DNA of 64,000 bases from an uncultured Prevotellaceae bacterium. GTDB lineage: Bacteria > Bacteroidota > Bacteroidia > Bacteroidales > Muribaculaceae. Position 1 is the stretch's first letter, and the number at the start of each line of letters is the position of its first letter. The position numbers and the translations under genes were made by a program. Where the stretch lies: positions 85,664 to 149,663 of the forward strand of contig ONJS01000014.1 in assembly GCA_900318205.1 (NCBI GenBank), written 5' to 3'. Below the pieces are notes generated by a model. That model was given only the letters and a program-made list of their open reading frames with translations, had not been told where the DNA came from and searched no databases. Shown here one piece after another: positions 19,880 through 35,680 of the stretch.

Positions 19880-20612
19880 AGACTTTATGGAGCGTCAGCC
19901 CAATAACCCTAATGTGGCGGTGACTGACCAGTTCTATTTGTGGATTGCCCTGCGGCTGGCCAAGCTGTGGGACGAGTCGCCGTGGCTGCGTGACCTGGAT
20001 GATACCGTGAGGCGTGACGTGGTGCTTGCCGTGACGGGCTACTACCAGGATGTGGTGGCCGATGGTGGCGTCTGGCGCTCGTTCTCGCGCATGCACAGCG
20101 AGCGTCATGGCATGCCCGTTCCATTTTATGAGCGCAGCGAGGACTATGTGGACTACGAGTTGAATCTTGACGATGTGCGCTATGTGATCTGGTGGACGAT
20201 AGCGGGCGAGCGCGGCAGTGATGTCCTTGATCCGCAGGATGATGGCCTCAAAGCGCTTGCCACAGCCTTCCACATGTTGCTTGACGAGGAATATGAGCAG
20301 GCTCCCGTGCCGCAGCAGTTCTGTATCGCCAGCGAGGTGGAGTTGACCAATCCCGCCGATGCCCAGCGCATCTATGATTACGCCTACTGGCTCTATTGGC
20401 GCAGTTTCCTGTTGCGCCCTTCATCCCAGGCTGTGATGGAGCGAGCCATGCCCGAGGCCCATGCCATCATTGCCCGCGTCGGCGAGGCTGATGCCCGCCC
20501 CCTGCTGTATGACCTCAACGAACGCCTCATGTCCACCGAGCCAGCTGGCCCCATCCCCTTGACCACCGCTCAATGGCTCCACCTCATCCTCGACGACAAG
20601 CTGCCGGTCTAG
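19863..20612 (+). CDS. DUF3843-like protein
   Basis: A 249-residue soluble protein without signal peptide or membrane segments. The pattern 'WRSFSRMHSERHGMPVPFY' followed by 'YELNLDDVRYVIWWTI' resembles DUF3843, a Bacteroidetes family of unknown function; the assignment is from pattern memory and is moderate. It is rich in Trp, Asp and Glu. It overlaps the ATPase gene by 17 nt, but its GC-rich, high-quality codon use contrasts with the AT-richer ATPase gene, which suggests the ATPase was inserted upstream of a resident gene. A CTAGA repeat block and a bidirectional terminator follow. Confidence 0.68.
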   Translation: MEISVKDFMERQPNNPNVAVTDQFYLWIALRLAKLWDESPWLRDLDDTVRRDVVLAVTGYYQDVVADGGVWRSFSRMHSERHGMPVPFYERSEDYVDYELNLDDVRYVIWWTIAGERGSDVLDPQDDGLKALATAFHMLLDEEYEQAPVPQQFCIASEVELTNPADAQRIYDYAYWLYWRSFLLRPSSQAVMERAMPEAHAIIARVGEADARPLLYDLNERLMSTEPAGPIPLTTAQWLHLILDDKLPV

Positions 20613-20714
20613 ATAGTCTAGAAAAACTAGATGTTCTAGACACACTAGATGTTCTAGACACTCTAGATAGACTAGATACTCTAGATATTCTAGAAGGTCT
20701 AGATTATCTAGATG
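20607..20714. repeat. CTAGA-rich short tandem repeat (about 12 units)
   Basis: Twelve copies of CTAGA, mostly inside TCTAGA or ACTAGA, are spaced 7-12 bp apart between the DUF3843 stop codon and a terminator. A smaller block with the same unit lies at 54288-54328, and single copies occur at 44351 and 55365. CTAG is normally rare in bacterial DNA, so the density is striking. Every unit carries TAG. Confidence 0.85.
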
Positions 20715-20718
20715 GATA

Positions 20719-20766
20719 GAAAAAAAGAGTTCCCGCTAGCCCAAGTGGCTGGCGGGAACTCTTTTT
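20719..20766. terminator. Bidirectional terminator between DUF3843 gene and secA
   Basis: A 15-bp stem (GAGTTCCCGCTAGCC / GGCTGGCGGGAACTC, with one T-G pair) has a 5-nt loop and is flanked by an A run on the left and TTTTTG on the right. It serves the converging DUF3843 (+) and secA (-) genes. Confidence 0.92.
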
Positions 20767-20790
20767 GTTGATTGTTATTGCCGTCGGCAA

Positions 20791-23700
20791 TTATGCCAGG
20801 CCGCGGCCGTGGCAGTTCTTGTACTTCTTGCCGCTACCGCAGGGGCAGGGATCGTTGCGGCCAATCTTGGGACCCTCGTTGCGGATGGGGCCGGTGGGGC
20901 CTTGCGGACGGGGACCGACGGGCGCATTGGGACGGCTGGGATCGGGCTGGCCGCCGCGACCCTCGCTGTAGCGCTGCTGGCGCTGCGGCTCACGCTCCTG
21001 TACGTTCTCTTGGGGCGGTGCCTCGGGAATCTGGCCACGCATGAGGATGGCGATGGACTTGCCGTTCATGACGCCAACCATCTGCTTGAACATGTTGAAG
21101 GCCTCGGTCTTGTAGATTACCAGCGGGTCTTTCTGCTCATAGCTAGCGTTCTGCACACTCTGGCGCAACTGGTCCATCTCGCGCAGGTGCTCCTTCCAGT
21201 TGTCATCGATGGTGAGCAGCATGACAGCCTTCTGCCATTGCTTGGTGAGCGACTTGCAGTGGGTGTCGGCGGCTTCCTTGATGTCGATGACGATGCCGAA
21301 GGTGCGCTTGCCGTCGGTGATGGGCACGCGGATGAGGCCCTGGGGCTCCATGCCGTCGGCTTTCTGCCTCTCGACAATCTGTTGGATGATGGGGTCGGCA
21401 ACTTCGCTCAGGCGTTCCATCTTGCGGTTGAAGGCCTTCAGCACGTTGTCATACAGGATGTCCTGCTTCTTGCCGTCATCCATGCGGCGGTACTCTTCCT
21501 CGTTGTAGGGGGGCTCAATGGCGTAGGTCTTGAGCACCTGCATCTGGAAGTCCTCGTAATCGTCGGGACCATATTTCTCGACCATGTCCTCAACGCTGTC
21601 GTAGAGGGTGTTGATGATATCCAGACCGATACGCTCACCGATGAGGGCGTGGTGGCGGCGTGAGTAAATCACCTTACGCTGGGCGTTCATCACGTCATCA
21701 TACTCGAGCAGGTGTTTACGGATACCGAAGTTGTTCTCCTCGACGCGTTTTTGGGCGTTCTCGATGCTCTTGGTCACCATGTTGCTCTCGATGGCCTCGC
21801 CATCCTTGAGTCCCATGCGGTCCAGCATCTTGACGGTTCTCTCGGGGGCAAACAGACGCATCAGCTTATCCTCGAACGAAACGAAGAATACTGATGAACC
21901 CGGGTCTCCCTGACGACCGGAACGGCCTCGCAGCTGACGGTCCACGCGGCGTGACTCGTGGCGCTCGGTACCGATGATGGCAAGACCGCCGGCGGCCTTC
22001 ACCTCGGGCGAGAGCTTGATATCGGTACCACGACCTGCCATGTTGGTGGCGATGGTCACGACACCCTTTCCGTCGATGGCCTGACCAGCCTGTGCGACGA
22101 TGTCGGCCTCCTTCTGGTGCAGCTTGGCGTTCAAGACGTTGTGCGGGATGTGGCGCAGGTTCAACATGCGGCTCAGCATCTCACTGATCTCGACGCTCGT
22201 GGTACCCACCAGCGTGGGACGTCCGGAATTGCGCATGGCCTCAATCTCGGCGATTACGGCATTGAATTTCTCCTTCTGCGTCTTGTAAACGCGGTCGGCC
22301 ATATCGTTGCGGATTACCGGCTTGTTGGTCGGGATGGTCACGACATCCAGCTTGTAGATGTCCCAGAACTCACCGGCCTCGGTCTCGGCGGTACCGGTCA
22401 TACCTGCCAGCTTGTGGTACATGCGGAAGTAGTTCTGCAGCGTGATGGTGGCAAACGTCTGGGTAGCAGCCTCGACATTCACACCCTCCTTGGCCTCGAT
22501 AGCCTGGTGCAGACCGTCGCTGTAGCGGCGTCCCTCCATCACACGTCCCGTCTGCTCATCGACGATCTTTACCTTGCCCTCGGCATCGACGATGTACTCG
22601 TCGTCGCGGTTGAACAGGGTGTAGGCCTTCAAGAGCTGTGTCACGGTGTGTACACGCTCGGCCTTGACCGAATAGTTAGCAAGCAGTTCATCCTTCTTGT
22701 TCATCTTCTCCTCCTCGGTCAGCGGCTCGTTGGTCACTGCCGACAGCTGGGCTGCGATGTCGGGCAGGATGAAGAACTCGGGATCGTCGGTACCCCTGGT
22801 GAGCACGTCGATACCCTTATCGGTCATCTCGACAGAGTTGTTTTTCTCGTCGATGATGAAGAACAGGGGATCGGTCACGGTGGGCATCTCGCGGTTGTTG
22901 TCCTGCATGTAGTAGGCCTCGGTCTTGAGCATGGCGGCCTTGACGCCCTCCTCACTCAGGTACTTGATCAACGGCTTGTACTTGGGCAGACCCTTGAAGG
23001 CACGGAAGAGTCGCAGGGTACCTTCCTTGACGGTTTCCGGGTCGTCGCTGGCCATCATCTTCTTGGCATCGGCGAGCAGTCCGGTCACCAGCTGGCGCTG
23101 AGCGTTATAGACGCGCTCCACGTTGGGCTTGAATTGGTTGAACATCTGGTCTTCACCCTTGGGCACCGGACCAGAGATGATCAACGGGGTACGGGCATCA
23201 TCGATGAGCACACTATCGACCTCATCGACGATGGCGAAGTTGTGGGGACGCTGCACCATGTCCTCGGGGCGCATCGCCATATTGTCGCGCAGGTAGTCGA
23301 AACCGAACTCACTGTTGGTACCGAAGGTGATGTCGCAGTTGTAGGCTGCACGGCGCTGGGGCGAGTTGGGCTCGGTCTTGTCGATACAAGCCACGGTCAT
23401 GCCGTGGAACATGTAGAGCGGTCCCATCCACTCGCTATCGCGCTTGGCCAGGTAATCGTTGACGGTTACCACGTGGACACCGTTGCCGGTCAGACCGTTC
23501 AGGAAGACGGGCAGGGTAGCCACCAGGGTTTTACCTTCACCAGTCGCCATCTCGGCAATCTTACCCTGATGCAGGACGATACCACCGATGAGCTGAACGT
23601 CATAGTGTACCATGTCCCACTTCATGTCGTTACCACCGGCAATCCAGTGGTTGGTGTAGATGGCCTTGTCACCGTCGATGCTCACAAAGTCCTTGCCCTG

Positions 23701-24120
23701 GGCTGCCAGGTCACGGTCGAGTTGGGTGGCGGTAACGGTAATGGTCTCGTTCTCGGCAAAGCGGCGAGCGGTGGATTTCACGATGGCAAACACGGTGGGC
23801 AACACCTCGTTGAGCTTGTCCTCGAGGACGTCGAGGATTTCCTTCTGGATGTCATCGACCTTCTTCCACAGCGGTTCACGTTCCTCATACTCGAGGGTTT
23901 CGATTTCGGCCTTGATGCGGTCGATCTCGTCGCGCTTGTCTTGTACCGAGTCATTGAGCTGCTGGCGGATGTCGGCGGTGCGCTGGCGCAGGCTGTCGAT
24001 GTCCAGAGCGTCAATCTCGGGATAAATGTCCTTGATTTGCTTGACAATAGGCGTGAGCTTCTTCAGGTCACGCGTTGACTTATTGCCAAACATGGATTTC
24101 AAAATGTCACTAAGTCCCAT
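20791..24120 (-). CDS. secA: Preprotein translocase ATPase SecA
   Basis: SecA is the motor that drives unfolded preproteins through SecYEG. The 1109-residue protein, long as usual for Bacteroidetes, has Walker A '[11 protein letters not shown]', the DEAD-like '[19 protein letters not shown]', preprotein cross-linking and helical scaffold domains, the second nucleotide domain ('NMAGRGTDI', '[13 protein letters not shown]') and the C-terminal zinc-binding SecB/ribosome contact motif '[14 protein letters not shown]'. A Pro/Gly/Arg/Gln-rich linker precedes the zinc motif. A minus-strand -7 box TACCTTTG (24180-24173) lies 53 nt before the start. A long antisense ORF on the plus strand is a shadow of its codon pattern. 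Confidence 0.98.
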
Positions 24121-24319
24121 TTCTTGGTTTGTTGTATTATATATTTATGTTTTGTTTTTGTCGTCCAAACTGCAAAGGTACACATTTTAAGTTGATTAGC
24201 CGCTATGATATAGCGATTTTTAGCAGATAGGAGCATTTAGGCCTCGTGGGCCTAGAAAAGACGTGGAGATTTTTAAGGTCTTTAAGTAGTGCTGACACCT
24301 AAAGTCTGACACCTAAAGC

Positions 24320-25582
24320 CTAACGCTTGGAGGTCGGGCCACGAGTGGGCTTGCCTAGCAGCCACACGTTGGTCAACGAGCGCACTACCAGTGCTGCCAT
24401 AATCGGGAAGAAGGCGATGTTGCCCACCTGGGGTTGCCAGGGCCATGCCAGCATGAGCAGACTCACAACCAGCGCGTTGAGGGCGTGGAGCCAGCCAGCA
24501 GCCGTGCGGGTTTTCTTGAACCAGGGCAACACGGCCAGCAACAGCAGCAGGGGGTGTAGCCAGGCGATGTTGATGTTGGGTGATGTGGCTTCGTGGGTAG
24601 AGAAGAAGATCAGGAAGAAGAGCAGGCATCCAGCCAATCCTCCTGTAGTAAACAGCATGGTGTCGAACCAGCGGGACACGTCACGGCGGCGCCAGTCACG
24701 ACTGCTCACGAGGAGCGTCAGCAGCAGCACGAGCAGTGCCACCGCCATGGGGGAGATGTACCACGGCGTGGGCGGTTTTACCTTGCCGGCGGTGCTCGCA
24801 TCGACAGGCACGGTGGTCGCCTTGACCAGTGGCATGGTCACGCTGTCGGTCTTGATGGTGGCACGGTCGATGGCATCCATCAGTATCATGGGGATGAACA
24901 TGGTGGCGCGCTGGTCGAGCACGGTGTCCACGTTCCAGCCCAATACCAGGTCGATGCCGAATTTTTCCCATGCATAGTTGCGGCAGTAGTGTGCCAAAAT
25001 GTCACGATAGGTGACAGTCGTGTCGCCCATCGCGGGATATTGCAGCCCCTCGCCCGCCGCCATCTCGATGATGTCGCGGGGACGGGTAGAGCAGTTGTCG
25101 CTCAGGAATTTGTAACGATAGGTGCGGTTCTCGGGTTGGGCATTGTACCACAGGAAGTTGCGCACGGCAATGGCGCGGTCCTGCGGCAGGTTGAGTTCCT
25201 GTTCCACCATGCGGCGCCCCTCCATGCCCATTGTGGCATAGGCGCGGGGCACGGGCATGCACAGGTAGTCGGTCTCGCCCAGCATGAATCGCCACATGAA
25301 GGCCGGTGCCTGGAAATCAAATACGCCGTAGTTAAAGTACAGGTCGATAGGGCCTTGCTGCACCCTGATCTCGCTGTGACCCCAGATGTTGTGGGGCTCG
25401 CTGCCGGGATAGAACGTCACGAGGCTCACGCGCACCGAGTCCTCCTCCTGTTGCTTCTGGGTCGGGACCGGTTCGGCAGGGAAGGGCAGTTCGGGCGCGG
25501 CTTCAAGTGTCCCCGTCGCACACAGGGCACACAATACCGTCATGCAATATGTTCGCAGCAGCCGTTGCATATATTTTATCAT
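24320..25582 (-). CDS. DUF4105/Lnb-type membrane protein
   Basis: A 420-residue membrane protein: an N-terminal signal sequence, a periplasmic domain of the Lnb/DUF4105 type (about residues 45-220) with the conserved His in 'NIWGHSEIRV' and Cys in 'FLSDNCSTRPRD', then five predicted transmembrane helices (from about residue 270, for example 'MAVALLVLLLTLLVSS' and 'LAGCLLFFLIFFS'). The Pfam domain name comes from Lnb, a lipoprotein N-acyltransferase of Gram-positive bacteria; the His/Cys pair fits a thiol acyltransferase. Whether this homologue acylates lipoproteins is inference. The start could be 25582 or ATG 25570. The region is 199 nt from secA, with TAAAG-type short repeats between them. 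Confidence 0.8.
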   Translation of the reverse strand: MIKYMQRLLRTYCMTVLCALCATGTLEAAPELPFPAEPVPTQKQQEEDSVRVSLVTFYPGSEPHNIWGHSEIRVQQGPIDLYFNYGVFDFQAPAFMWRFMLGETDYLCMPVPRAYATMGMEGRRMVEQELNLPQDRAIAVRNFLWYNAQPENRTYRYKFLSDNCSTRPRDIIEMAAGEGLQYPAMGDTTVTYRDILAHYCRNYAWEKFGIDLVLGWNVDTVLDQRATMFIPMILMDAIDRATIKTDSVTMPLVKATTVPVDASTAGKVKPPTPWYISPMAVALLVLLLTLLVSSRDWRRRDVSRWFDTMLFTTGGLAGCLLFFLIFFSTHEATSPNINIAWLHPLLLLLAVLPWFKKTRTAAGWLHALNALVVSLLMLAWPWQPQVGNIAFFPIMAALVVRSLTNVWLLGKPTRGPTSKR

Positions 25583-25980
25583 GTGGCAAGAATAATGCCA
25601 ATAATATAATAACGTGAAATCGACGAAATTATTTCCAGTTTCAGGTAGGATCTGTCACCTAAATCGGGTGGGGAATGTGGGATTTTTGCTGATAAAAATT
25701 CGGGGGAAATGTTAAAAGATTGTTAAATTTCTTGTAATTCACTGATTTACAGGACACCTTCATCAGGGCGCCGAGTTCATTGCCCTTGAGCCTTCGGGTC
25801 ACCCTGAGCCAGATTGCCGGGTTAAGTTGTATGGTAAGTGATGTTTTCATGACTTCTCCTCGGTTTAAAATGGTTTTTTGTCACTTTTGCCGCAAAAGTA
25901 ACCCACCTCCTCACCGCCCCACCATGTCAAAAAGCACAAACAACCCCAAACACTACAACAAAGTGGTTTCAAGCCTCTAG
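25583..25980. other. Gene-poor stretch; one doubtful minus-strand small ORF
   Basis: No confident gene is seen. A minus-strand ORF of 63 codons (25850-25659) has a TACTTTTG -7 box 43 nt before its ATG (25900-25893), inside a small palindrome ACTTTTGC/GCAAAAGT. The peptide ('...RVTRRLKGNELGALMKVSC...') is not recognised, and the ORF may be a remnant of a mobile element. Confidence 0.3.
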
Positions 25981-26437
25981 TGGGCATCCGCACACTTGAC
26001 GAAAATGGAAAACAAGAAGTACAATAAATACTATGGCATGCGCGTCCTTTGTATATTAACAACAACTGAAATAACTGAAACAAGCTGGGCATCCGCATAC
26101 TGAACTAAAAGGAAAACAAGAAGTACAACAAATACTATGGCATTCGCGTCCTTGCTAAATTAACAACAACTGAAACAAGCTGGGCATCCGCATACTGAAC
26201 TAAAAGGAAAACAAGAAATACAACAAATACTATGGCATGCGCATCCTTGCTGTATTAACAACAACTGAAACAACTGAAACAAGCAGGGCATCCGCACACT
26301 GAACGAAAAGGAAAACAAGAAATACAATAAATACTATGGCATGCGCGTCCTTTTATATTAACAACAACTGAAACAACTGAAACAAGCTGGGCATCCGCAT
26401 ACTGAACTAAAAGGAAAACAATAAATACAATAAATAC
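25981..26437 (+). repeat. Tandem array of about 100-bp units tagged GGGCATCCGC (4.5 copies)
   Basis: Units start at 25981, 26086, 26181, 26285 and 26388 (last one partial), with lengths of about 105, 95, 104 and 103 bp. Each begins with GGGCATCCGC, continues with an A-rich block (GGAAAACAAGAAATACAA), has a second half opening with GGCATNCGCG, and ends with one or two AACTGAAAC copies. The length differences come from the number of these 9-mers. A diverged copy in opposite orientation lies at 30490-30635. The array forms the left edge of the AT-rich cassette. Confidence 0.92.
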
Positions 26438-26588
26438 AAATCTGTTCTAGTGAGAATCAATACAATTTATTTTCTTCCCTGCACTTCTTGTCTTAATAAT
26501 CACATGACAATAATCACTATTTGCACTGATTACCAATAATTTGTGTTGTTATCATTAAAAATGTATTCTAATAGGATACACTCATTTC

Positions 26589-26619
26589 TTGCATGGTATT
26601 GGCGCTGCTATTAATTTTG
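26589..26619 (+). promoter_or_regulatory. Promoter of the HTH-HNH operon
   Basis: TTG (26589-26591), a 20-bp spacer and TAATTTTG (26612-26619) match the Bacteroidetes consensus and lie 30 nt before ATG 26650. Confidence 0.78.
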
Positions 26620-26649
26620 CAAACAAAAAACAATTTAAAATATATAATT

Positions 26650-27276
26650 ATGAATAATAAGAAACTATTAGGTAAACTCATCGAAGAAGAAGTGAGGCGT
26701 CAGCAAATTCCAATAACAAAATTTGCTGATATGATTTGTTGCCAAAGAAATAATGTGTATAAGATATTTGATCGCTCATCATTGCACGTCGACCAGTTGG
26801 CATTAATCTCGAAGGTCCTGAATCGTAACTTTTTTGAAGAACTGGCAATTGACCCATCATTAATTGACATTAATAGTGAGGAAGCAATCCAAGAGATTGA
26901 GAATAGAAGGGCTGTTTCTCAATTCATGGAAGTTGTACCAAAGGTGTTATCTGATATGGGAAGACAACCGGTCATTGCTTTTGGAATACCATTAGGAATG
27001 GAAGATGTGGAAGAACTTCCTGATTTCATGCTAACGGATTATGGAATTTGCTTTTCTAAAAACAACTTTATGGCTCTAAAACCGCAATATAAGACAAATC
27101 CTTTATTTGATTTTAGGGAATTTGAGAACAATGATGGAATTAAAGTTTACTTGATGATTAATACGTTGACTGGCTCGCATATGATTGATGTCAAATTGGA
27201 TTATAAGACAGAAGAAGAGTGGGAGAAAACCTTTAGATTTATATTTGAGACTTTTTTTGATCATGGAAGTAAATGA
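26650..27276 (+). CDS. HTH (XRE-like) protein of the AT-rich cassette
   Basis: A 208-residue protein. The N-terminal 65 residues form a Cro/CI-type helix-turn-helix ('KFADMICCQRNNVYKIFDRSSLHVDQLALISKVLN'), an XRE-like arrangement. The rest is an uncharacterised domain with no membrane segment. ATG 26650 is chosen over upstream codons because it lies directly behind the promoter and starts at 'MNNKKLLGKLIEEE'. The stop overlaps the HNH gene by 14 nt, so the two form an operon. The strong AT bias compared with the resident genes suggests acquisition by transfer. It could regulate the cassette, but no operator was identified. Confidence 0.72.
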   Translation: MNNKKLLGKLIEEEVRRQQIPITKFADMICCQRNNVYKIFDRSSLHVDQLALISKVLNRNFFEELAIDPSLIDINSEEAIQEIENRRAVSQFMEVVPKVLSDMGRQPVIAFGIPLGMEDVEELPDFMLTDYGICFSKNNFMALKPQYKTNPLFDFREFENNDGIKVYLMINTLTGSHMIDVKLDYKTEEEWEKTFRFIFETFFDHGSK

Positions 27277-28342
27277 TTTGTTGAATGATTTTAATGAAGT
27301 CCGAGAATGCGACTTTAAAGGTGAGCATTATTCCGTTCGCGATAATGGTGCTGTTTATCGTCATGCTCGTCTCAATAAAAGGAAGAGAAAATATGATAAT
27401 ATATGGACATTTGGTACACCGAACAATTCAAATGGTTACATGTATCTAAGCACCGTAAGGGTTCATCATATCGTCGCTACAGCATATTTCGGAGATCGTG
27501 ATACAAAGGTATATGTTGTTGATCATAAGGACTCGAATAAACGGAATAATCGTGTTGAGAATCTCCATTGGCTTACTCGTTTAGAGAATATCCTGACTAA
27601 TCCCGCAACATTGAAGAAAATCATATTTTATTGTGGTAGTGTCGAAAACTTTTTGAGTAATCCGGTCTTAATTAGGAGATTTGCGAATCAAAATCCAGAT
27701 TATAGTTGGATGAGAAGTGTGTCAAGAGAGGAAGCGAAATGCACCTTAGAAAACATGAATGAATGGGCTAAAAAGCCTAATGAGGAGCCAAAAGGAGGGA
27801 AAATGGGAGAATGGATTTTTAAATCATTAGGCTTTAACCCTCAAATGGAGATAATGAGAAGATCGATGCAGATTGGCCAGTCGAAGAAAAAGAATCAGTC
27901 AATGCCCATTCATGATAATCTGGCATCTGAAGAAATGACCAGGAATTATGTAGTTGCAAATAGTCCCAGTAGTGCGGTCCAAAAAGATTGGAGAACACCT
28001 ACCGATTTTACTCTTTGTCCGTCAGAAGTGTCAGATACGGCATTAATAGATTACTATAATAACATCTCAAGAGGGAAAGTTATGACGAGTAATGTTTTTG
28101 GAGGAACAAAAGTGTTTGATTATGCCATAAATGAGAAGAACACATATATTTGGGTATTATGTAGAAGAACGGAGAAGCACCCAATTAAACGCTGGGCTTT
28201 ATCAGGTATTTTTGTTGATAATGGAAAGTTTGTTCATGAGAATTTAGGCTCTTTTTTTTCAGCAAGGGGTGGATATAAACAATTCATACTCGCCCAGGGA
28301 AAAGAATGGAATGGTGGCAATAGTGTAGATGATTACTGCTGA
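27263..28342 (+). CDS. HNH endonuclease-domain protein with unknown C-terminal region
   Basis: A 359-residue protein. Residues about 20-110 look like an HNH_3 nuclease domain of the homing/phage kind: 'VRDNGAVYR', then 'VRVHHIVATAYF', 'VVDHKDSNKRNNRVENLHWLT' with the paired His, Asp/His and Asn. The remaining 240 residues ('...PTDFTLCPSEVSDTALIDYYNNI...') are not recognised. A free-standing homing endonuclease would not need them, so they may hold a target-binding or effector role. ATG 27263 lies inside the upstream HTH gene (14-nt overlap), which supports this start over the in-frame codons further upstream. Codon use is AT-rich like its neighbours. Confidence 0.75.
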   Translation: MEVNDLLNDFNEVRECDFKGEHYSVRDNGAVYRHARLNKRKRKYDNIWTFGTPNNSNGYMYLSTVRVHHIVATAYFGDRDTKVYVVDHKDSNKRNNRVENLHWLTRLENILTNPATLKKIIFYCGSVENFLSNPVLIRRFANQNPDYSWMRSVSREEAKCTLENMNEWAKKPNEEPKGGKMGEWIFKSLGFNPQMEIMRRSMQIGQSKKKNQSMPIHDNLASEEMTRNYVVANSPSSAVQKDWRTPTDFTLCPSEVSDTALIDYYNNISRGKVMTSNVFGGTKVFDYAINEKNTYIWVLCRRTEKHPIKRWALSGIFVDNGKFVHENLGSFFSARGGYKQFILAQGKEWNGGNSVDDYC

Positions 28343-28522
28343 AACTCAATTAAAAATGAATTGAAAAGCAGTACCCTCACGCACAGGATGAAACGAACGA
28401 AACGGAAAACTCTCACGACTCCCTTTTGGGTTGCAATCACTTCCAACCAAATGAATCGTTAGATTCCACTAAGAGTTGTTTTTTATTTCCATCGTTTTGG
28501 TAGAGGCAATTGGAAATATTAG
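28343..28522. other. Spacer between the two HNH genes
   Basis: No gene is seen. It holds a short hairpin (CAATT/AATTG) just after the first HNH gene, which may weaken read-through, and the promoter elements of the second HNH gene at its end. Confidence 0.4.
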
Positions 28523-28530
28523 TATATTTG
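28495..28530 (+). promoter_or_regulatory. Promoter of the second HNH gene
   Basis: TTTTG (28495-28499), a 23-bp spacer and TATATTTG (28523-28530), 49 nt before ATG 28580; the spacer is longer than usual. Confidence 0.5.
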
Positions 28531-28579
28531 CCGTGAAACACGAGAACGTGGGACCCATTTCTGAAGAAAGAATAGTAAT

Positions 28580-29443
28580 ATGGAATACAAAGGAGATTTC
28601 ATCATGCAGAAGTACGTTGATTGGTCTCTGCTTAATCAAGGTATCACAATACCTGTAGCTGTTTATTCTATCTTGGCTACTTGGGACAAATCATTATTGA
28701 TGCATGGAAATAATAAAGATATAAAGATTCTTATCGATGGAGAGTTTTATGACGCAAAACTCAAGAATCTCAATTTTAATCAAGCAAATCACGCTGGGCA
28801 TAGGGATATTATTCAAATAAGGTATAGCCCTGGTTCTCCTTTGGCAAATAAATTGCGCGCAATATTCAAGAGGAGTTATGATTACTATTATGCCGAGCGA
28901 CTCCTGCAAGGTAATAGCCGTCGCAATATACCTCTACCAACAGATTTTAAAGAATACATCCAGTTGTATCTGTCGACATCACCAAACGTGTTATGCATGG
29001 ATTATTGTTCTGACTCAGAATCACAAAAATTAGCAAATGCACTGATTTCTATTCCCGAAGAAATATATGAAGTCGGCGATGATGAGTTTTTCATGTCAGA
29101 CGATACTGCTAAAATTGTTGAAAGAGAGACTCTGATGAAGTACCGTAAGATAGATCGAAATGTTATCAAGATGCTCAAAAAATTCTATGATTACAGGGAC
29201 GAGATTAGTGGAGAGAAAATAGGTAGTGAGTTTGGTGAGAGTGTTGTTGAGGCCCACCATATAGACTACTTTACTAAGTCACAAAACAATGACTCAACCA
29301 ACATCATCATTATTAGTCCTAATTACCATCGAATTATCCATAAGAACAATCCTCATTTCAATCGAAAGAAATATCGGTTCGAGTTTGAAAACGGTGAGGT
29401 GCTCAAACTGAAATTGTATGAGCATCTAAGGGTTGGTAATTAA
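28580..29443 (+). CDS. HNH endonuclease, restriction-like
   Basis: A 287-residue protein. The N-terminal 200 residues are unrecognised ('GHRDIIQIRYSPGSPLANKLRAIF' near residue 75). The C-terminal part (about residues 205-275) is an HNH nuclease domain of the type common in single-protein or type II restriction enzymes: 'FYDYRDEISGEKIG', 'VEAHHIDYFTKSQNNDSTNIIIISPNYHRIIHKNNPHFN', with the catalytic His pair, Asn and last His. The usual zinc-binding CxxC pairs are absent. No methyltransferase is nearby, so it is not an ordinary restriction-modification pair. ATG 28604 is an alternative start. AT-rich like the rest of the cassette. Confidence 0.75.
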   Translation: MEYKGDFIMQKYVDWSLLNQGITIPVAVYSILATWDKSLLMHGNNKDIKILIDGEFYDAKLKNLNFNQANHAGHRDIIQIRYSPGSPLANKLRAIFKRSYDYYYAERLLQGNSRRNIPLPTDFKEYIQLYLSTSPNVLCMDYCSDSESQKLANALISIPEEIYEVGDDEFFMSDDTAKIVERETLMKYRKIDRNVIKMLKKFYDYRDEISGEKIGSEFGESVVEAHHIDYFTKSQNNDSTNIIIISPNYHRIIHKNNPHFNRKKYRFEFENGEVLKLKLYEHLRVGN

Positions 29444-29468
29444 TCAAGGATATAGAATTAAGATTATG

Positions 29469-30182
29469 CTACCACAAAGAAGCACTTACTTTGGATAGAC
29501 CTTCATATTTTTTGATAATCTGAGCATACTCCAGGAAACCTACGCGTCCTTTTATCGGTTGATATATTGATTTGTTGAGTTTGCTTTCAAATTCAGCTTT
29601 TCTGTAATAGTCTGCCACAATATAGAAATGTGCAGCAAAATCCTGCAATTCAAAGAAACGGTCAAATGCGCCTGTCATATTTGTTGTGTGTTCTACCTCA
29701 AATAGGCGTGACGGAAGGCATCTTTCCTTATTGAACCAGATGACATCTACTTGACGAGCCGTGTTTAGCAGATTGTCATAAGTGAAGGTCGGAAGGGTGG
29801 TAGTATCGACAATGTCTTTCAGGGGTTTATCAATAAACAGCCTGCTTTGGTCTTGTGCTGGAACGTATGTGATGAGGTTCTCCAATTTTCCGATTTCAAC
29901 TAGCAAACCTTGATAGTAGCCGTGGGTGAATAGTTCTTCGCTCTCTTTGTCACCTATTTTCAGTTTGAATTTTGCCAATACCTCATCACGACACTCCTCA
30001 AGAGCCCATAAACCTGGCTGTATCCTAAAGATATGTTTACTATCTTGGACAATCCTGCGTACTGAGGCCTGTGGAGTTTTTGTTTTCCAAGTAGAAAAAT
30101 CCATTTTAGCATTGAGCTGTCTGAATGTGGAATACCCGCCCAAGGCCCTCATCATTTCAATTACTTGTTGTTCCTGTGTCAT
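29469..30182 (-). CDS. HARE-HTH plus PD-(D/E)XK-like restriction endonuclease
   Basis: A 237-residue protein. The N-terminal 75 residues look like a winged-helix HARE-HTH domain ('QQVIEMMRALGGYSTFRQLNAKM...SVRRIVQDSKHIFRIQPGLWAL'), a module often fused to restriction enzymes. The C-terminal half has a nuclease-like core: 'GLLVEIGKLENLITYVPAQDQSRLF' and 'VDVIWF......SRLFEVEHTTNMTGAFDRFFEL', where Asp and the E-x-E pair could be the PD-(D/E)XK site. ATG 30182 is chosen over 30233 because it lies behind a consensus minus-strand promoter. It converges with the second HNH gene, 25 nt apart. No methylase is seen. Confidence 0.74.
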   Translation of the reverse strand: MTQEQQVIEMMRALGGYSTFRQLNAKMDFSTWKTKTPQASVRRIVQDSKHIFRIQPGLWALEECRDEVLAKFKLKIGDKESEELFTHGYYQGLLVEIGKLENLITYVPAQDQSRLFIDKPLKDIVDTTTLPTFTYDNLLNTARQVDVIWFNKERCLPSRLFEVEHTTNMTGAFDRFFELQDFAAHFYIVADYYRKAEFESKLNKSIYQPIKGRVGFLEYAQIIKKYEGLSKVSASLW

Positions 30183-30202
30183 ATCAGTGAGTTTATGAGT
30201 TA

Positions 30203-30233
30203 CAAAGGTAACGAAAAAGAATAAAGCAAGCAA
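30203..30233 (-). promoter_or_regulatory. Promoter of the HARE-type nuclease gene
   Basis: On the minus strand TTG (30233-30231), a 20-bp spacer and TACCTTTG (30210-30203), 21 nt before ATG 30182. Confidence 0.75.
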
Positions 30234-30246
30234 AAAACATGGTTAA

Positions 30247-30423
30247 TTACGTCAGTATACCTATTATGTGGGGCCGGGCTTGACCTCGACGCATTGGCTG
30301 GTGTATGATGCCGAGCGGGATTTATATGGCGACTCGGTGGACTGGTGCGAATACTATTGGTGCACCCGCGAGGACTTTATGCGGGCACGTGGTGACCGGT
30401 GGTGGAGCCTGGATCATGGTTGA
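30247..30423 (+). pseudogene. Gene fragment (58 codons, no start)
   Basis: A GC-rich open frame, quite unlike the AT-rich DNA on either side, encodes a protein-like tail '...LTSTHWLVYDAERDLYGDSVDW' followed by 'CEYYWCTREDFMRARGDRWW' and a TGA stop. There is no plausible start codon or promoter, and TAA at 30244 closes the frame upstream. It looks like the 3' end of a lost gene left when the cassette was inserted. The family was not recognised. Confidence 0.5.
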
Positions 30424-30489
30424 TTTTAAACAGCGGATACTGCAAAAAATGACATGCACAACAGCCGATTAAAAAATCGCGTTGTTGTG

Positions 30490-30635
30490 CATGTGCAGTG
30501 TTGTTTTAATTGTTGTTTATCAAAGGGATGCGGATGCCCCTTAGTGTTTGTTGTATTTATTGTTTTCTTTTTTGTTGGTGTGCGGATGCCCGCTTGTTTG
30601 AGTTGTTTAAGTTGTTGTTTTTAACTGTTGGCGTG
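30490..30635 (-). repeat. GGCATCCGC repeat unit, inverted relative to the 26-kb array
   Basis: Read on the minus strand it holds GGGCATCCGC (tags at 30589-30582 and 30537-30530, 52 bp apart), an A-rich block with AAACAATAAATACAA and ACAACTTAAACAAC-type ends, matching one unit of the array at 25981-26437. It sits between the gene fragment and the LRR/dockerin gene. Confidence 0.85.
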
Positions 30636-30637
30636 AA

Positions 30638-32680
30638 TCAGTTTCTTTGCTTGATGGCGCGGGAGACTGATTTTATGGCGGCGGCATCTTGACTTTGACG
30701 GTGAGGCTTTCTGTCGACGGCAGCACTGGCGGAAACGACTGGGCGATAGGCGGTATAATTGGTGAAACTCTGGTTAAGCGACAGCAAGAGGTAGCCGTTG
30801 TCATCTATGTCGCAGTAGAGTTCCTCATAATCGCCGTCGTTGTACCAGATGTATAGCCGTTGGCCTTTCAAAACCCACCTCAGATCAATAATACAGTCGA
30901 TGATTTCATTATTAACATAGGTGCTATAGGAGTAGTGGCCAGTCTTGTTGGCATTGAACGTAAACTGCACCGCGATTTGTTCCGGTATATCATATTTGCC
31001 ATATTCATCGACAGCATACTCAGAGTACCATGTGCCTGTAATGTCTAGGGCACAATAATCTCCCAAAATTACATCAGCCACGGCATTGACGTCAGCAATA
31101 TTGACTTCGCCGTCACCGTTCACATCGGCTGCTGCATTGTCGCCGCCAAGAATCACATCGATGACGGCATTGATGTCGGCAATGTTGACCTCATCGTCGC
31201 CGTTCACGTCGCCATAGACATGTCCCGTCTCCACAATCCTCTCGAAAAACGGGAACCAATGCCAATCGGCTTGATAGGCATCGGCAGTGCCGTGGGGCAC
31301 ATGAAGTGTGCGACCTGAAAAGTCAGGAATGTCTAGGCTGAAGACATTATGCTCCATTGTGATTGCTGACGGGTCGGTAATATAGCAGTATACGTCCTTC
31401 AGGCTGGTACAGTTACGGAAGGCCTCGGTGCTGATGGTCGTGACTGAATTGGGGATGGTTACGCTTGTTAAGTTTTCACAGTCAAGGAATGCGCCCTCGC
31501 CAATGAAAGTGACCACATCAGGGATGTCCATGCTGGTCAGACCAGTGCAGTTATCAAACGCATAGGCATCGATGGTTGTGACGGAATTACCGATGGTGAG
31601 GTCAGTCAAGCCGGTGCAGTACGAGAATGCCCCCCTGCCGATGGTGTAGACTGAATTGGGAATGATGACGCTTGACAAGCCGCTGCAATCCACGAATGCC
31701 CAGTCGCCGATCGCGGTGACCGTATTGGGGATAACAGTGTTCTGGCAACCCGCAATCAGGGTGTTGCTTGAGGTCTCGATGATTGCGTTGCAGTTGTCGC
31801 GTGAATCGTATTTAGGATTACTGCTATCGACGATGATGCTCGTCAGGCCACTGCAGCCGCAGAAAGCATTGCCGTCGATTGCGTTGACCGAACTGGGGAT
31901 AGACAAGCTCGTTATACTCTCGCAGCCAGAGAATGCCTCGTTGCCGATGGTAGTGACCGCGTCAGGGATGTCGGCGCTCGTCAGTTCACTGCAGTTAGCG
32001 AATGCACAATTGCCGATTGAGGTGAGAGAGACAGGCAAGTTGACACTCTTCAGGCCTGTAAAGTTAAAGAACGCATAATCATTGATGGCAGTAACTGAAC
32101 TGGGGATAACAAGATCAGTAACCTCCACATCATTTAAATATAAGCGATGTGCGTAATTAAGAGGATTAGAAGCATGTGTGGAAAATGAGATATTGCACCA
32201 AGCCGCCAGGTCGGTAATCCTGACGATGGCTAAGTTGTTGCAGTCCCAAAATGCCTGATCGCCAATAGAAATGACCGAGCTGGGGATGTCCACGCTCGTC
32301 AGGCCACTGCAGTAATAGAATGCCCGCTCGCCGATTGAGGTGACGGCGCCAGGGATAGTCATGCTCGTTAAACTATTACACCAAAAGAATGCTTCGGAGC
32401 CGATGGTCGTGACAGAGCTAGGGATGGTCACACTTGTCATCTCATTGCTGCCGTAGAAGGCACCACTGCCGATGGCGGTGACCGAGTAGGTCTTGTCCCT
32501 ATAGGTCACAGTTGAGGGGATCGTCACGTCGCCGCCGTAGTAGCCATAACCTTTTGTCACGGTGACTTCGTTGCCGTTGATATTGTAGTAGATGCCATCG
32601 ACCTCAAAGTCAAAGGCGGTGGCAGTGGCTGGCAACAGCAGGGCCAGCAGCAGGAGTGTGGATGTGATAAAGTTTTTCAT
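30638..32680 (-). CDS. Secreted BspA-like LRR protein with dockerin pair
   Basis: A 680-residue secreted protein: signal peptide (ending 'PATATAF'), about 15 LRR_5 repeats to residue 480 ('IPSSVTTIGSEAFFWCNSLTSMTIP' type), a dockerin pair (DVNGDDEVN..DINAVIDVIL and DVNGDGEVN..DVNAVADVIL, about residues 497-550) and a C-terminal 120-residue beta-rich domain that starts 'DITGTWYSEY' and resembles lipocalin-like domains. BspA-like proteins often bind host or bacterial surfaces; the ligand here is unknown. A minus-strand consensus promoter lies at 32761-32729. The last codons reach the GGCATCCGC repeat. Confidence 0.9.
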   Translation of the reverse strand: MKNFITSTLLLLALLLPATATAFDFEVDGIYYNINGNEVTVTKGYGYYGGDVTIPSTVTYRDKTYSVTAIGSGAFYGSNEMTSVTIPSSVTTIGSEAFFWCNSLTSMTIPGAVTSIGERAFYYCSGLTSVDIPSSVISIGDQAFWDCNNLAIVRITDLAAWCNISFSTHASNPLNYAHRLYLNDVEVTDLVIPSSVTAINDYAFFNFTGLKSVNLPVSLTSIGNCAFANCSELTSADIPDAVTTIGNEAFSGCESITSLSIPSSVNAIDGNAFCGCSGLTSIIVDSSNPKYDSRDNCNAIIETSSNTLIAGCQNTVIPNTVTAIGDWAFVDCSGLSSVIIPNSVYTIGRGAFSYCTGLTDLTIGNSVTTIDAYAFDNCTGLTSMDIPDVVTFIGEGAFLDCENLTSVTIPNSVTTISTEAFRNCTSLKDVYCYITDPSAITMEHNVFSLDIPDFSGRTLHVPHGTADAYQADWHWFPFFERIVETGHVYGDVNGDDEVNIADINAVIDVILGGDNAAADVNGDGEVNIADVNAVADVILGDYCALDITGTWYSEYAVDEYGKYDIPEQIAVQFTFNANKTGHYSYSTYVNNEIIDCIIDLRWVLKGQRLYIWYNDGDYEELYCDIDDNGYLLLSLNQSFTNYTAYRPVVSASAAVDRKPHRQSQDAAAIKSVSRAIKQRN

Positions 32681-32728
32681 TTCGTTTTTAAGTATTATTT
32701 TGTGATGTTATTTGTCATTTTCATGCTG

Positions 32729-32761
32729 CAAATTTAGGCACTCTTGTAGTCTCCCACCAAA
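32729..32761 (-). promoter_or_regulatory. Promoter of the LRR/dockerin gene
   Basis: On the minus strand TTTG (32761-32758), a 21-bp spacer and TAAATTTG (32736-32729), 48 nt before the ATG. Confidence 0.72.
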
Positions 32762-32861
32762 TTAAAAAACACAAATACTCAGGAGTGTAAAAATTTTTTA
32801 CACCCAAGTGTCAATTATTTTTACATTCTTTATTGAGAAAAGATACTTTTTTGAACTGAAA

Positions 32862-32963: not shown

Positions 32964-34097
32964 ATGAACAGGAAGAAATCTACTCCGCTTAATCCTTTCC
33001 TATTAACAGGATATGTGTCACCTGATTATTTCTGTGATAGGGAAGAAGAGACCAAAAGGCTTATCTCAGCATTGCTGAATGGTCGCAATGTAACCCTGAT
33101 AAGCCCCCGACGTATGGGCAAAACAGGTCTGATTCGACATGCTTTTCATCATTTGAATGTCGGAAAGCAAGCAAAGTGCTACTATGTGGATTTATATAAG
33201 ACTGATAGCTTGTCGTCTTTGGTTGAGCAATTGGCTAATGTAGTGTTGGGCTCTCTTGATACAACTGAGGACAAGATTATAAGGCAGGTCACCACATTCT
33301 TTAAATCATTACGTCCTTTATTCAGTTTTGATTCTTTGTCGGGTGTGCCAACCTTTACAGTCGATGTGAAGCCAGAATTGGCTGAATACTCCCTGAGCGA
33401 GATTTTCTCTTATATGGAGCAGTCCGGACAGCAGTGCGTCATAGCGATGGATGAATTCCAGTCAATCGTTAATTACAAGGACAAAAATGTGGAGGCATTG
33501 TTGCGTTCCCATATTCAGCAACTCACGTCGGTTCATTTCATCTTTTCGGGTAGCCAACGCCATGTCTTGGAAAACATGTTTGCCTCGGCTAACCGTCCTT
33601 TTTATCAGAGTACACAGATTCTGAATCTCTTTGAAATTCAGGAGGATTCCTACAGTAAATTTGCAAGGAGTAAATTTGAGGCTCATCATCAGCAAATAGA
33701 TGAAGATGTTTTTGATTATATATATCAAAAGCTTTTTGGGCATACTTGGTATATACAGGTACTGTTGAACCGTTTGTATGAAATAGGAGAATCATCAATT
33801 GATAAAGAATTGATTGACAAAGTCCTGGCTGATGTGGTTGATGAGAATGAAGCTACATTCCAGACGTTCATTCGCTTAATCAGTCCTGCCCAGGTAAAGT
33901 TACTACGTGCCATCTCGGCTGAAGGTATTGTACAACAGGTACTGAATCAGTCATTTATCAGTAAATATCATTTGGGAGCGACCAGTACAGTTAGCTCGGC
34001 TCTTAAGGCCTTAGTTGAAAAAGAGTTGGTTTTAGATGTTAAAGGCAAGTATCAGGTTTACGACCGTTTTTTTGGCCTTTGGCTAAAATCAAATTAA
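32964..34097 (+). CDS. Orphan AAA/archaeal-type ATPase
   Basis: A 377-residue P-loop ATPase: Walker A 'LISPRRMGKTGLIRHAF' (about residues 45-61), Walker B 'CVIAMDEFQSIVNY', sensor 'FIFSGSQRHVLENMF', then a C-terminal winged-helix-like region ('ISPAQVKLLRAISAEGIVQQVL' to 'YQVYDRFFGLWL'). This resembles the archaeal-type ATPase families common as single genes in Bacteroidetes; the role is unknown. It is a different subfamily from the DUF4143 ATPase at 18.6 kb, since no DUF4143 is present. It is AT-rich, has its own promoter with repeats, and is followed by a GGCATCCGC repeat, so it may belong to a movable segment. Confidence 0.85.
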   Translation: MNRKKSTPLNPFLLTGYVSPDYFCDREEETKRLISALLNGRNVTLISPRRMGKTGLIRHAFHHLNVGKQAKCYYVDLYKTDSLSSLVEQLANVVLGSLDTTEDKIIRQVTTFFKSLRPLFSFDSLSGVPTFTVDVKPELAEYSLSEIFSYMEQSGQQCVIAMDEFQSIVNYKDKNVEALLRSHIQQLTSVHFIFSGSQRHVLENMFASANRPFYQSTQILNLFEIQEDSYSKFARSKFEAHHQQIDEDVFDYIYQKLFGHTWYIQVLLNRLYEIGESSIDKELIDKVLADVVDENEATFQTFIRLISPAQVKLLRAISAEGIVQQVLNQSFISKYHLGATSTVSSALKALVEKELVLDVKGKYQVYDRFFGLWLKSN

Positions 34098-34210: not shown

Positions 34211-35680
34211 TTACCAGGAGCCGTAGGCGCCGCGGTCGGCGTCGAGTCGTAACAGGATGAACAGCAGCACGGTAAAGCCCAGCAATGAGGAGCCGCCGTA
34301 GCTGAAGAACGGCAAGGGGATGCCGATGACAGGACACAGGCCGATGACCATGCCGATGTTGATGGTGAGGTGGAAGATGAGGTAGGACGCGACGCAGTAG
34401 GCATAGACGCGCGCAAATGTCGAGTGGTTGCGCTCCGCCAGTGTGATGATGCGCAGGATCAATGCCAGGAAGAGCACCAATACTGCCACGCTGCCCACGA
34501 AGCCCTGCTCCTCGCCGATGGTGCAGTAGATAAAGTCGGTGTGTTGCTCAGGCACATACTTCAGTTTGGTCTGCGTGCCGTTGAGGAATCCTTTGCCCAT
34601 GATGCCGCCGCTGCCGATGGCGATTTTGCTCTGGTTGACGTTATAGCCGGCGCCCCTGAGGTCTTCCTCGATGCCCAGGGTGACCTTGATGCGCTGTTGC
34701 TGGTGGGGCTCGAGCACCTTGTTGAACGCGAAGCTCACCGTGAACATGAACACGAGTGACGCTGCGGCAAAACAGATGGTAATGAGCACCTTCTTCAAGT
34801 CGTCATGCAGCATGCCCCACAAGAGGTAGAGCAGTGACAGGATGATGACGGGCAGGAAGAAGGCATAGCCGTTGACATTAACGCCAGCCAGTGTCAAGCC
34901 TCCAGCGATGGCACCCGCCGCCAGGTAGCCCAGCAGCACGTTGCGCCCCAGAATCCACGAGCGGCAATAGATCAACAGCATGCCCACCACGAGCACCATC
35001 ACGATGATAAAGGCGATGGCGATGCCCAATGGTATGCCCATAAAGGTGATGGCTGCAAACTTCAGTACCACGACAAAATAGACCACCGCCATCAAGGCTG
35101 CAAACAGCACAAAGCCTGACATGCCCTCACGGTAGAGGACAAAGAACAGGGCGGTGTAAACCAGTGCCGTGCCCGTCTCGCGCTCCAGGATGATGCACAG
35201 GATGGGCAGCAGGATGATGCCTAGAGCGATGGCATAGTTGCGCCATCCGTTGAGCGTGAACCCGTAGGTGCTGAACAGTTTAGCCAGTGCCAGCGCCGTC
35301 GCTGTCTTGGCAAACTCGGCAGGTTGCAGGCTCACCGGTCCGAATACGAGCCAGGACCGGGAGCCCTTGATGTCGGGCGCGACAAAACTGGTGATAATCA
35401 GCAGCAATATCATGAATCCGTATAGCGGATAGGCATAGGCTTCATAGATGCGCCTGTCAATCAGCAGCAGGGAGAAACCAATCAGGAACGAGAGACCAGC
35501 CCACAGGAACTGCTTGCCCGAGAACTCGCTCAGGTCAAACATGCTCGCCTTGTCATAATCATAGGTCGCGGCATAGATGCTCACCGCCCCGGCAATGATC
35601 ATGATGAGGTAGAGGACAATGGTAATCCAGTCCACTGACCTCAATAGGTTGGTATTCTCATCTTCGTTCCTTACTTCCAT
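34211..35680 (-). CDS. rodA: Rod-shape determining protein RodA
   Basis: RodA is the SEDS-family peptidoglycan glycosyltransferase of the elongasome. The 489-residue polytopic membrane protein has the family's helices and the C-terminal signature 'GLCPVIGIPLPFFSYGGSSLLGFTVLLFIL'. It is longer than proteobacterial RodA (about 370 residues) because of extra central hydrophobic segments (about residues 190-310), as often in Bacteroidales. It is the last gene of mreB-mreC-mreD-mrdA-rodA and is separated from mrdA by a TTAGAC repeat tract. Confidence 0.95.
   Translation of the reverse strand: MEVRNEDENTNLLRSVDWITIVLYLIMIIAGAVSIYAATYDYDKASMFDLSEFSGKQFLWAGLSFLIGFSLLLIDRRIYEAYAYPLYGFMILLLIITSFVAPDIKGSRSWLVFGPVSLQPAEFAKTATALALAKLFSTYGFTLNGWRNYAIALGIILLPILCIILERETGTALVYTALFFVLYREGMSGFVLFAALMAVVYFVVVLKFAAITFMGIPLGIAIAFIIVMVLVVGMLLIYCRSWILGRNVLLGYLAAGAIAGGLTLAGVNVNGYAFFLPVIILSLLYLLWGMLHDDLKKVLITICFAAASLVFMFTVSFAFNKVLEPHQQQRIKVTLGIEEDLRGAGYNVNQSKIAIGSGGIMGKGFLNGTQTKLKYVPEQHTDFIYCTIGEEQGFVGSVAVLVLFLALILRIITLAERNHSTFARVYAYCVASYLIFHLTINIGMVIGLCPVIGIPLPFFSYGGSSLLGFTVLLFILLRLDADRGAYGSW

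Follow-up and report, generated by a model that had tools for sequence, protein, structure and literature searches.

A probable mobile XRE-HNH_3 nuclease operon and a separate restriction-like module within one insertion in a Muribaculaceae genome

Introduction

The window analysed here is a stretch of 64,000 nucleotides from an uncultured Prevotellaceae bacterium of the GTDB family Muribaculaceae (contig ONJS01000014.1, positions 85,664 to 149,663), the genome of which is a 3.6-Mb draft in 53 contigs. Four neighbouring genes in this window encode a helix-turn-helix (HTH) protein of the XRE type, here called XRE-208, an HNH_3 nuclease, a second HNH-like protein and a type II restriction enzyme-like protein. 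A preliminary description of the window proposed that the four genes form a single inserted cassette, either defensive or selfish, which lies between inverted repeats and chooses its targets without a cognate methylase. The question that the locus raises is whether these genes are indeed one system, and if they are not, what the separate parts are and what they might do. We found that the block is an insertion relative to related genomes and that it holds two independent modules, module A (XRE-208 and HNH_3) and module B (the second HNH-like gene and the restriction-like gene). Our preferred reading, to which we give a probability of about one half when its three parts are taken jointly, is that two mobile nuclease modules of unrelated kinds and a leucine-rich repeat (LRR) gene have accumulated at a variable intergenic site; that module A is a mobile nuclease operon which is under the control of a repressor, has no methylase, descends from a homing endonuclease and probably acts on invading DNA; and that module B is probably an ordinary solitary type II-like restriction gene, unusual in its HNH-like companion. 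The features on which the argument turns are as follows.

25620-32824: full extent of the insertion, as defined against the empty site; flanked by an Lnb-like gene and an AAA gene (blastn to syntenic relatives)
26562-28342: module A, from the candidate operator through the HNH_3 gene
26562-26580: palindrome TGTATTCTA-A-TAGGATACA ahead of the XRE-208 gene, 9-nt arms with 1 mismatch; candidate operator
26650-27276, plus strand: XRE-208 gene, module A; N-terminal HTH and C-terminal alpha/beta domain
27263-28342, plus strand: HNH_3 nuclease gene, module A; I-HmuI-like N-terminal domain and C-terminal domain
27938-28339, plus strand: C-terminal domain of the HNH_3 protein, residues 226-359
28580-29443, plus strand: second HNH-like gene, module B; N-terminal domain without assignment
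29469-30182, minus strand: type II restriction enzyme-like gene, module B

Results

The block is an insertion at a variable site

All four genes were missing from each of 20 syntenic stretches of genus relatives, a sample of 20 of the 58 other genomes of the genus with the Lnb-like gene. In 15 of the 20 stretches the Lnb-like gene was accompanied by the gene at 34211, which we take from its sequence to be FtsW/RodA-like. Blastn placed window positions 25619 and 32825 only 15 bp apart in the closest relative (L077) and positions 25620 and 32825 14 bp apart in L084, and a third relative (L096) matched the window to 25619 and again from 32830, with 20 bp between. Other DNA occupies the site in L083 (~1.9 kb) and L093 (~1.1 kb). 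No clear target-site duplication was seen at the ends of the insertion. The preliminary description was right that the block is inserted and rich in nuclease genes, and its limits of 25981 and 30635 proved too narrow: the inserted 7.2 kb contain the repeat array, both modules, a GC-rich gene fragment, the right-hand repeats and the LRR gene. The AAA ATPase gene beyond the right end (32964-34097) is present in 7 of the 20 syntenic relatives and is reduced to its two ends in genome G271 (L077).

Within the block, the coordinates and strands of the four open reading frames (ORFs) agree with those first assigned, as does the 14-nt overlap between the XRE-208 and HNH_3 genes. The AT-rich character reported for the block is also evident, with a GC content of 0.31-0.41 across 26000-30250 in 500-nt windows, against mostly 0.55-0.62 with dips to 0.48 in the left flank (20000-25500) and 0.45-0.54 over the LRR gene to its right. 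A Pfam scan of seven proteins encoded in the block or at its edges, confined to this locus, returned no methyltransferase, as had been claimed. The HNH_3 protein was the only one of the four with a Pfam match above cut-off (HNH_3, E 2.8e-13, in keeping with its label); the XRE-208, second HNH-like and 29469 proteins had none.

Two modules rather than one cassette

We surveyed 247 genomes of the family, the source genome included, and none of the 246 others held all four. The HNH_3 protein was found at full length in 14 other genomes (17 genomes matched overall, the source genome included, with G031 and G223 matching over the HNH part alone) and the XRE-208 protein in 5 (125 genomes matched, mostly over the HTH domain alone). 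The restriction-like protein occurred in 18 other genomes, and the second HNH-like protein in two, G222 and G027. The XRE-208 and HNH_3 genes are adjacent in G237 and G082. The restriction-like gene adjoins the second HNH-like gene in G222 and lies on another contig in G027. In G222 the restriction-like gene and its companion fragment stand on the other side of the HNH-like gene, inverted; since this order and orientation differ from those in the window, the module B pair has either been rearranged or been formed twice.

Modules A and B are independent. That the four genes make up one defence system whose parts act together would suit their proximity and shared AT-richness in the window, and we regard it as very improbable given that each module is found alone, that none of the other family genomes has the four and that the module B genes are rearranged in G222; on their distribution in the family we rejected it. 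The single cassette of the preliminary description therefore did not hold up: the four genes as a set are unlinked in most relatives, whereas the XRE-208 and HNH_3 genes are paired in several loci.

The HNH_3 protein has an I-HmuI-type catalytic domain

A scan of named genomes gave 370 stretches with an HNH_3 relative, some of them perhaps with the HNH part alone. We kept the best 80, all of which matched to residue 357 or beyond. By record title these loci come from Bacteroidota, Chlamydiae, Alphaproteobacteria, Helicobacter and others, with many metagenome bins among them, so that contamination is possible. Besides its Pfam match, the HNH_3 protein matched a homing-endonuclease model of PADLOC. 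A profile of 71 sequences had I-HmuI as its sole PDB match at E<=0.1 (1u3e, E 6.7e-10); the match is limited to positions 22-115 of the profile and to residues 12-101 of the 174-residue chain. In the HMMER alignment to 1u3e, residues D87, H88 and N109 align to D74, H75 and N96 of I-HmuI, which are termed catalytic in PMC12724721. The three residues are invariant in all 71 rows of the HNH_3 alignment, which comprises the window and 70 of the 80 loci (L144, L152, L153, L161-L164, L168, L169 and L197 were omitted). The protein thus carries an I-HmuI-type HNH catalytic domain with its D/H/N residues.

Comparison of the window with L133 gave a ratio of nonsynonymous to synonymous substitution rates (dN/dS) of 0.127 over the full length of the HNH_3 gene, with 0.054 in the HNH part and 0.22 in the C-terminal domain, and of 0.092 for the XRE-208 gene. 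Both genes are under purifying selection. An intron remnant, which we also considered for the HNH_3 gene, is not supported: the ORF is open, selection is purifying and the setting is an operon.

The AlphaFold model of the HNH_3 protein has a mean predicted local distance difference test score (pLDDT) of 84.7 and a predicted template modelling score (pTM) of 0.46, and because of this pTM the arrangement of the domains is uncertain. The C-terminal domain, part of the region left without assignment in the preliminary description and suggested there for structure prediction, is well modelled (pLDDT block means of 92-98 from residue 231). When the whole model was searched with Foldseek, nothing in the PDB matched at E<=0.001; I-HmuI itself is missing from the 50 matches listed, so this result says little about the novelty of the fold. 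The C-terminal domain has no Pfam or NCBIfam name. A similar domain occurs as a separate protein of 137 residues on plasmids of Agrobacterium and Rhizobium (Rhizobiaceae). Such a standalone domain is also present on one Legionella fallonii plasmid. L128-L132 are loci of this standalone form, and in L130 and L132 a gene for 143 residues lies just upstream of it.

A conserved element precedes the XRE-208 gene

The AlphaFold model of XRE-208 (pLDDT 84.6) had no Foldseek match at E<=0.001, and the sequence matched no Pfam or NCBIfam model. The nearest fold was the N-terminal domain of CapH (E 7e-3), a regulator from cyclic-oligonucleotide-based antiphage signalling systems (CBASS); this likeness covers the HTH domain alone, and in contrast to the CapH-type regulators module A has no CBASS gene in its operon. 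The fold also resembles C.BclI, C.AhdI and C.Esp1396I (all E>0.001). These XRE control proteins belong to type II restriction-modification systems, with which module A also shares a nuclease adjoining the XRE gene. A few HNH_3 relatives are preceded by DNA methyltransferase genes, namely L185 (Dam), L190 (D12 class, 99 nt away) and L217 (N6/N4, a viral contig), unlike the operon of the window, which has none. On the related viral contigs L216, L217, L219-L221 and L223, a ParB-like/N6-N4 methyltransferase gene, confirmed as a methylase by Pfam in L217, ends 15 nt before the start of the HNH_3 relative.

Half of the window palindrome is the heptamer GATACAC. Of 24 loci, 21 carry this motif or its reverse complement in the 160 nt that precede the XRE-208 start, at a distance of 52-79 nt. 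It is missing from L135, G042 and G021, and L135 has a perfect TGTCACC-TAAAT-GGTGACA palindrome in its place. For motif counts, and for the exported-gene counts given below, we used 73 of the 80 loci, leaving the window uncounted and omitting the near-identical L152, L161-L164, L168 and L169. With near-identical copies, the window and the G genomes removed, GATACAC preceded XRE-208 in 12 of 13 distinct loci vs 6 of 559 other genes of these loci, and it preceded none of 18 genes of a second XRE family. A conserved element therefore precedes the XRE-208 gene. The XRE-208 alignment comprised 15 of the 20 XRE-208 loci and the window.

Module A recurs with exchangeable partners

We counted the families that recur in at least four loci within 5 kb of the HNH_3 gene. 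XRE-208 is present in 20 of the 80 loci, directly adjacent in 15 and with one exported gene between in the other five. The second XRE family, with its HTH at the C-terminal end, is present in 19. Apart from L206, where the XRE gene is on the opposite strand, these genes stand on the same strand as HNH_3 and adjacent to it, or one exported gene away in the five XRE-208 loci just mentioned. Taken together, the two unrelated families occur on the same strand in 38 of the 80 loci. Three small exported or membrane families are found in 15, 7 and 4 loci, mostly adjacent (one lies 3.7 kb away), and a family that reads as mobilisation-like is found in 5 near-identical loci. Partner families and this mobilisation-like family are the only flanking families present in at least 4 of the 80 loci; beyond the partner genes, the flanks consist mostly of one-off genes.

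The order of the operon is permuted, with XRE-exported-HNH_3, XRE-HNH_3-exported, exported-HNH_3 and HNH_3-exported arrangements all observed. Judged with a home-made signal-peptide rule, small exported proteins are encoded by 23 of the 79 genes that adjoin HNH_3 on the same strand vs 45 of 548 other genes (Fisher P 9e-7); before removal of near-identical loci the counts were 30 of 92 and 46 of 593. The window locus has no small exported partner gene. XRE-208 sits on three separate branches of the HNH_3 tree, and across its 81 rows the partner state, scored in three classes, changes at least 16 times, as a raw count without a shuffled-label baseline. In G042 and G021, XRE-208 precedes a different gene of 253-258 residues, alike in both by eye, and this indicates that the partners of module A are exchanged. 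Genes for this different protein lie after XRE-208 at L308:2307-3083 and L309:5311-6072, and Pfam assigned no family above cut-off to the L308 copy.

Module A also moves between genomes. Loci L157 (Muribaculaceae) and L159 (Bacteroides) have just 1825 bp in common, at 95% identity, and this shared segment represents horizontal spread of the module. No shared target site of the HNH_3 copies was found among the 80 loci, where insertion sites are diverse. The copy in G082 (L157) lies ~160 nt from a tRNA-Gly gene. In L134, L135 and L144, HNH_3 cassettes with different XRE types stand ~0.9-1.5 kb from the same secreted-protein family (MKNAVFHF...), possibly a shared insertion region.

Two genes with overlapping frames and the XRE gene first, spread horizontally as a pair, are also what a toxin-antitoxin module would look like, in which the XRE protein neutralises a DNase toxin, and the second XRE family does match antitoxin models, below their curated cut-offs. 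Such a pair should keep a constant partner, and in 42 of the 80 loci neither XRE family is found nearby on the same strand. In other loci HNH_3 is preceded by genes for exported proteins or for DNA methyltransferases, and the want of any Pfam or NCBIfam match for XRE-208 itself adds to the case against. We therefore consider a toxin-antitoxin pair improbable. No title listed by our literature searches dealt with XRE and HNH_3 genes in one operon together with exported partners; the operon of module A is widespread and has been little described, and it is a variant of a known nuclease kind.

Probable kinship with viral homing endonucleases

The HNH_3 protein matched 216 of 50,697 phage records, none of them over 80% of the query. 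Many of the named matches of its model in BFVD come from phages and large viruses and are HNH enzymes or homing endonucleases. On two viral contigs (L214 and L225) its relatives lie, by eye, among phage structural genes, and L225 shares residues 1-190 alone. Our best reading is that the HNH_3 protein descends from I-HmuI-type phage homing endonucleases. It is like these free-standing enzymes in its catalytic domain, with the D/H/N residues aligned, and in having relatives on viral contigs. Unlike them it has an XRE gene of its own, preceded by a conserved element, and chromosomal operons with exported partners; its C-terminal domain, for which no match was found, may be a further difference.

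Homing endonucleases spread selfishly, and the host gains nothing. Module A could accordingly be a purely selfish, free-standing homing element that nicks empty sites and is copied into them by repair, with the regulator and the exported genes as passengers. The I-HmuI-type domain and the viral matches are what this explanation predicts; partner genes that vary between loci, flanks of mostly one-off genes beyond them and the nearly full-length relatives on viral contigs also favour it. A homing element would be expected at a common target, and none was found among the diverse insertion sites. Purifying selection on both genes and the dedicated regulator with its conserved element also stand against it; we know of no homing gene with such a regulator. 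We judge the selfish explanation possible, if somewhat unlikely, and place it close behind the defence reading. The preference for the latter is slight because nearly full-length relatives occur on 13 of the 35 viral contigs that match and because the relatives in L214 and L225 lie among phage genes.

Module B resembles a solitary restriction gene

The C-terminal half of the second HNH-like protein matched a PHROGs family of unknown function (E 2.1e-5) ahead of an HNH endonuclease family (E 0.0037), and with no Pfam match above cut-off its original HNH label is weak. Its N-terminal domain had no PDB sequence match better than E 0.52, and the protein had no match in the 50,697 phage records or in the viral-contig scan. 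For the 29469 protein, first described as a HARE/PD-(D/E)XK-like nuclease, the HARE part found no Pfam support at E<=1. The nuclease part fares better: PADLOC REase_II matched at E 2.7e-4 (a model without curated cut-off), and its relatives give better support, several of the plasmid homologs listed (20 of 73 records) being annotated as type II restriction endonucleases and the rest mostly as hypothetical, and some distant relatives adjoining DNA methyltransferase genes. No Pfam match above cut-off and no PDB sequence match was obtained.

No cognate methyltransferase stands beside the restriction-like gene at the window locus, which was the part of the genome searched. We fetched the contexts of its homologs in the other genomes except G073. 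In 11 of the 18 the protein is 50-67% identical, and in this group a methyltransferase lies near the gene in G173 (L317) alone, of D12 class and one KilA-N gene away (contexts by eye). Among six genomes at 40-46% identity, three have an adjoining methyltransferase (L321 and L324, N6/N4 by Pfam; L323 by eye). One further feature accompanies module B:

30265-30420, plus strand: GC-rich coding fragment, also beside the restriction-like gene in G222

The fragment, noted already in the preliminary description, is 53% identical to L045:10413-10562 and is divergent from the restriction-like gene in both loci.

A fragment next to the module, the lack of a linked methylase in the window and the methylases that adjoin some distant relatives would all suit a decayed restriction-modification remnant without function. 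In PMC3488263, 99 of 272 solitary restriction genes are likely fragments and 57 have a distant candidate methylase. Both module B genes have open frames and are 62-67% identical to their G222 counterparts; synonymous differences are saturated, and nonsynonymous differences amount to 0.23-0.24 per site. In 14 of the 18 other genomes the restriction-like gene is nearly full length and uninterrupted; in 3 it has been interrupted or split, and in 1 it runs off a contig end. A remnant is therefore doubtful, and module B is probably a solitary restriction gene, of the methylase-lacking kind described in that study, unlike these in having an HNH-like companion both here and in G222.

Discussion

We infer the following course of action for module A. 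The XRE protein would bind the GATACAC-type palindrome at its own promoter and keep the operon low. The HNH_3 protein would nick or cut DNA through D87, H88 and N109, and its C-terminal domain may supply recognition of a target or trigger, so that, we propose, a protective methylase would not be needed. The likeliest benefit would be the cutting of phage or plasmid DNA, much as some phage HNH enzymes, when expressed in a host, reduce the plating of related phages. We prefer action on invading DNA because the regulator, the nuclease and the C-terminal domain recur together under purifying selection, because the regulator has a conserved upstream element, and because two host-expressed phage HNH enzymes lowered phage plating, with efficiencies of plating of 0.12 and 0.10 in Lactococcus (PMC12724721). 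Of the choice first offered, a defence or selfish cassette without a cognate methylase, the lack of a linked methylase has stood, the single cassette has not, and defence is the side that we infer.

Several observations weigh against this preference. Five other enzymes were inactive in the same Lactococcus work (PMC12724721). The nearly full-length viral relatives and the selfish habit of homing endonucleases have been mentioned, as have the loci without a same-strand XRE gene, which are more than half of the 80. The C-terminal domain, to which recognition is assigned, has a higher dN/dS than the rest (0.22-0.43 across the pairs tried). Small exported partners misfit a simple model of cytoplasmic restriction. 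Matches to defence models were found among both the nearest (130) and the farthest (101) neighbours of the loci and do not discriminate between them. Finally, the P value of 1e-19 for the GATACAC contrast is indicative only, since the motif was chosen after the sequences had been viewed and the loci share common ancestry.

A bolder version would make module A the prototype of a class of defence operons that crosses phyla and arose from a domesticated phage homing endonuclease. In it the XRE regulator would be swappable, the C-terminal domain would sense invading DNA or a phage product, the exported proteins would form an envelope-side arm, and phages would be restricted without a methylase by nicking at sites that the host lacks. 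We hold this to be unlikely, though tenable. If module A is active, it would show how a selfish phage gene was turned into a bacterial operon under regulation, one that deals with DNA and needs no methylase for protection; a function would be at hand for a C-terminal domain that Pfam and NCBIfam leave unnamed and that Rhizobiaceae plasmids encode on its own; and for gut bacteria, small exported proteins without a family name would gain a testable link to nucleases.

Other features of the locus

Two sets of repeats flank the modules.

25981-26437: tandem array of a 104-nt unit, 4.5 copies, member of a genome-wide dispersed family
30490-30635: two diverged repeat copies (30529-30622), opposite in orientation to the array, at the 3' end of the LRR gene

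Both places had been pointed out before, with their opposite orientation, and taken to bound the cassette. As cassette ends they were rejected: the 104-nt unit has 36 matches in its own genome at E<=0.001, mostly partial and including the window's own places, and the insertion ends elsewhere, at 25620 and 32824. The core GGGCATCCGCA occurs 19 times in the genome, 7 of them within the two window places, and the same pattern read backwards does not occur. A similar single copy 3' of an LRR homolog in another species (G193, L095) is further evidence against a role as cassette ends.

Two small exported protein families, often encoded as a gene pair, occur in genomes without an HNH_3 match, beside or near NERD (L367), HNH (L382), GmrSD (L383) and AAA_21 (L385) genes, and in L370 and L371 they again lie near nuclease- or defence-like genes.

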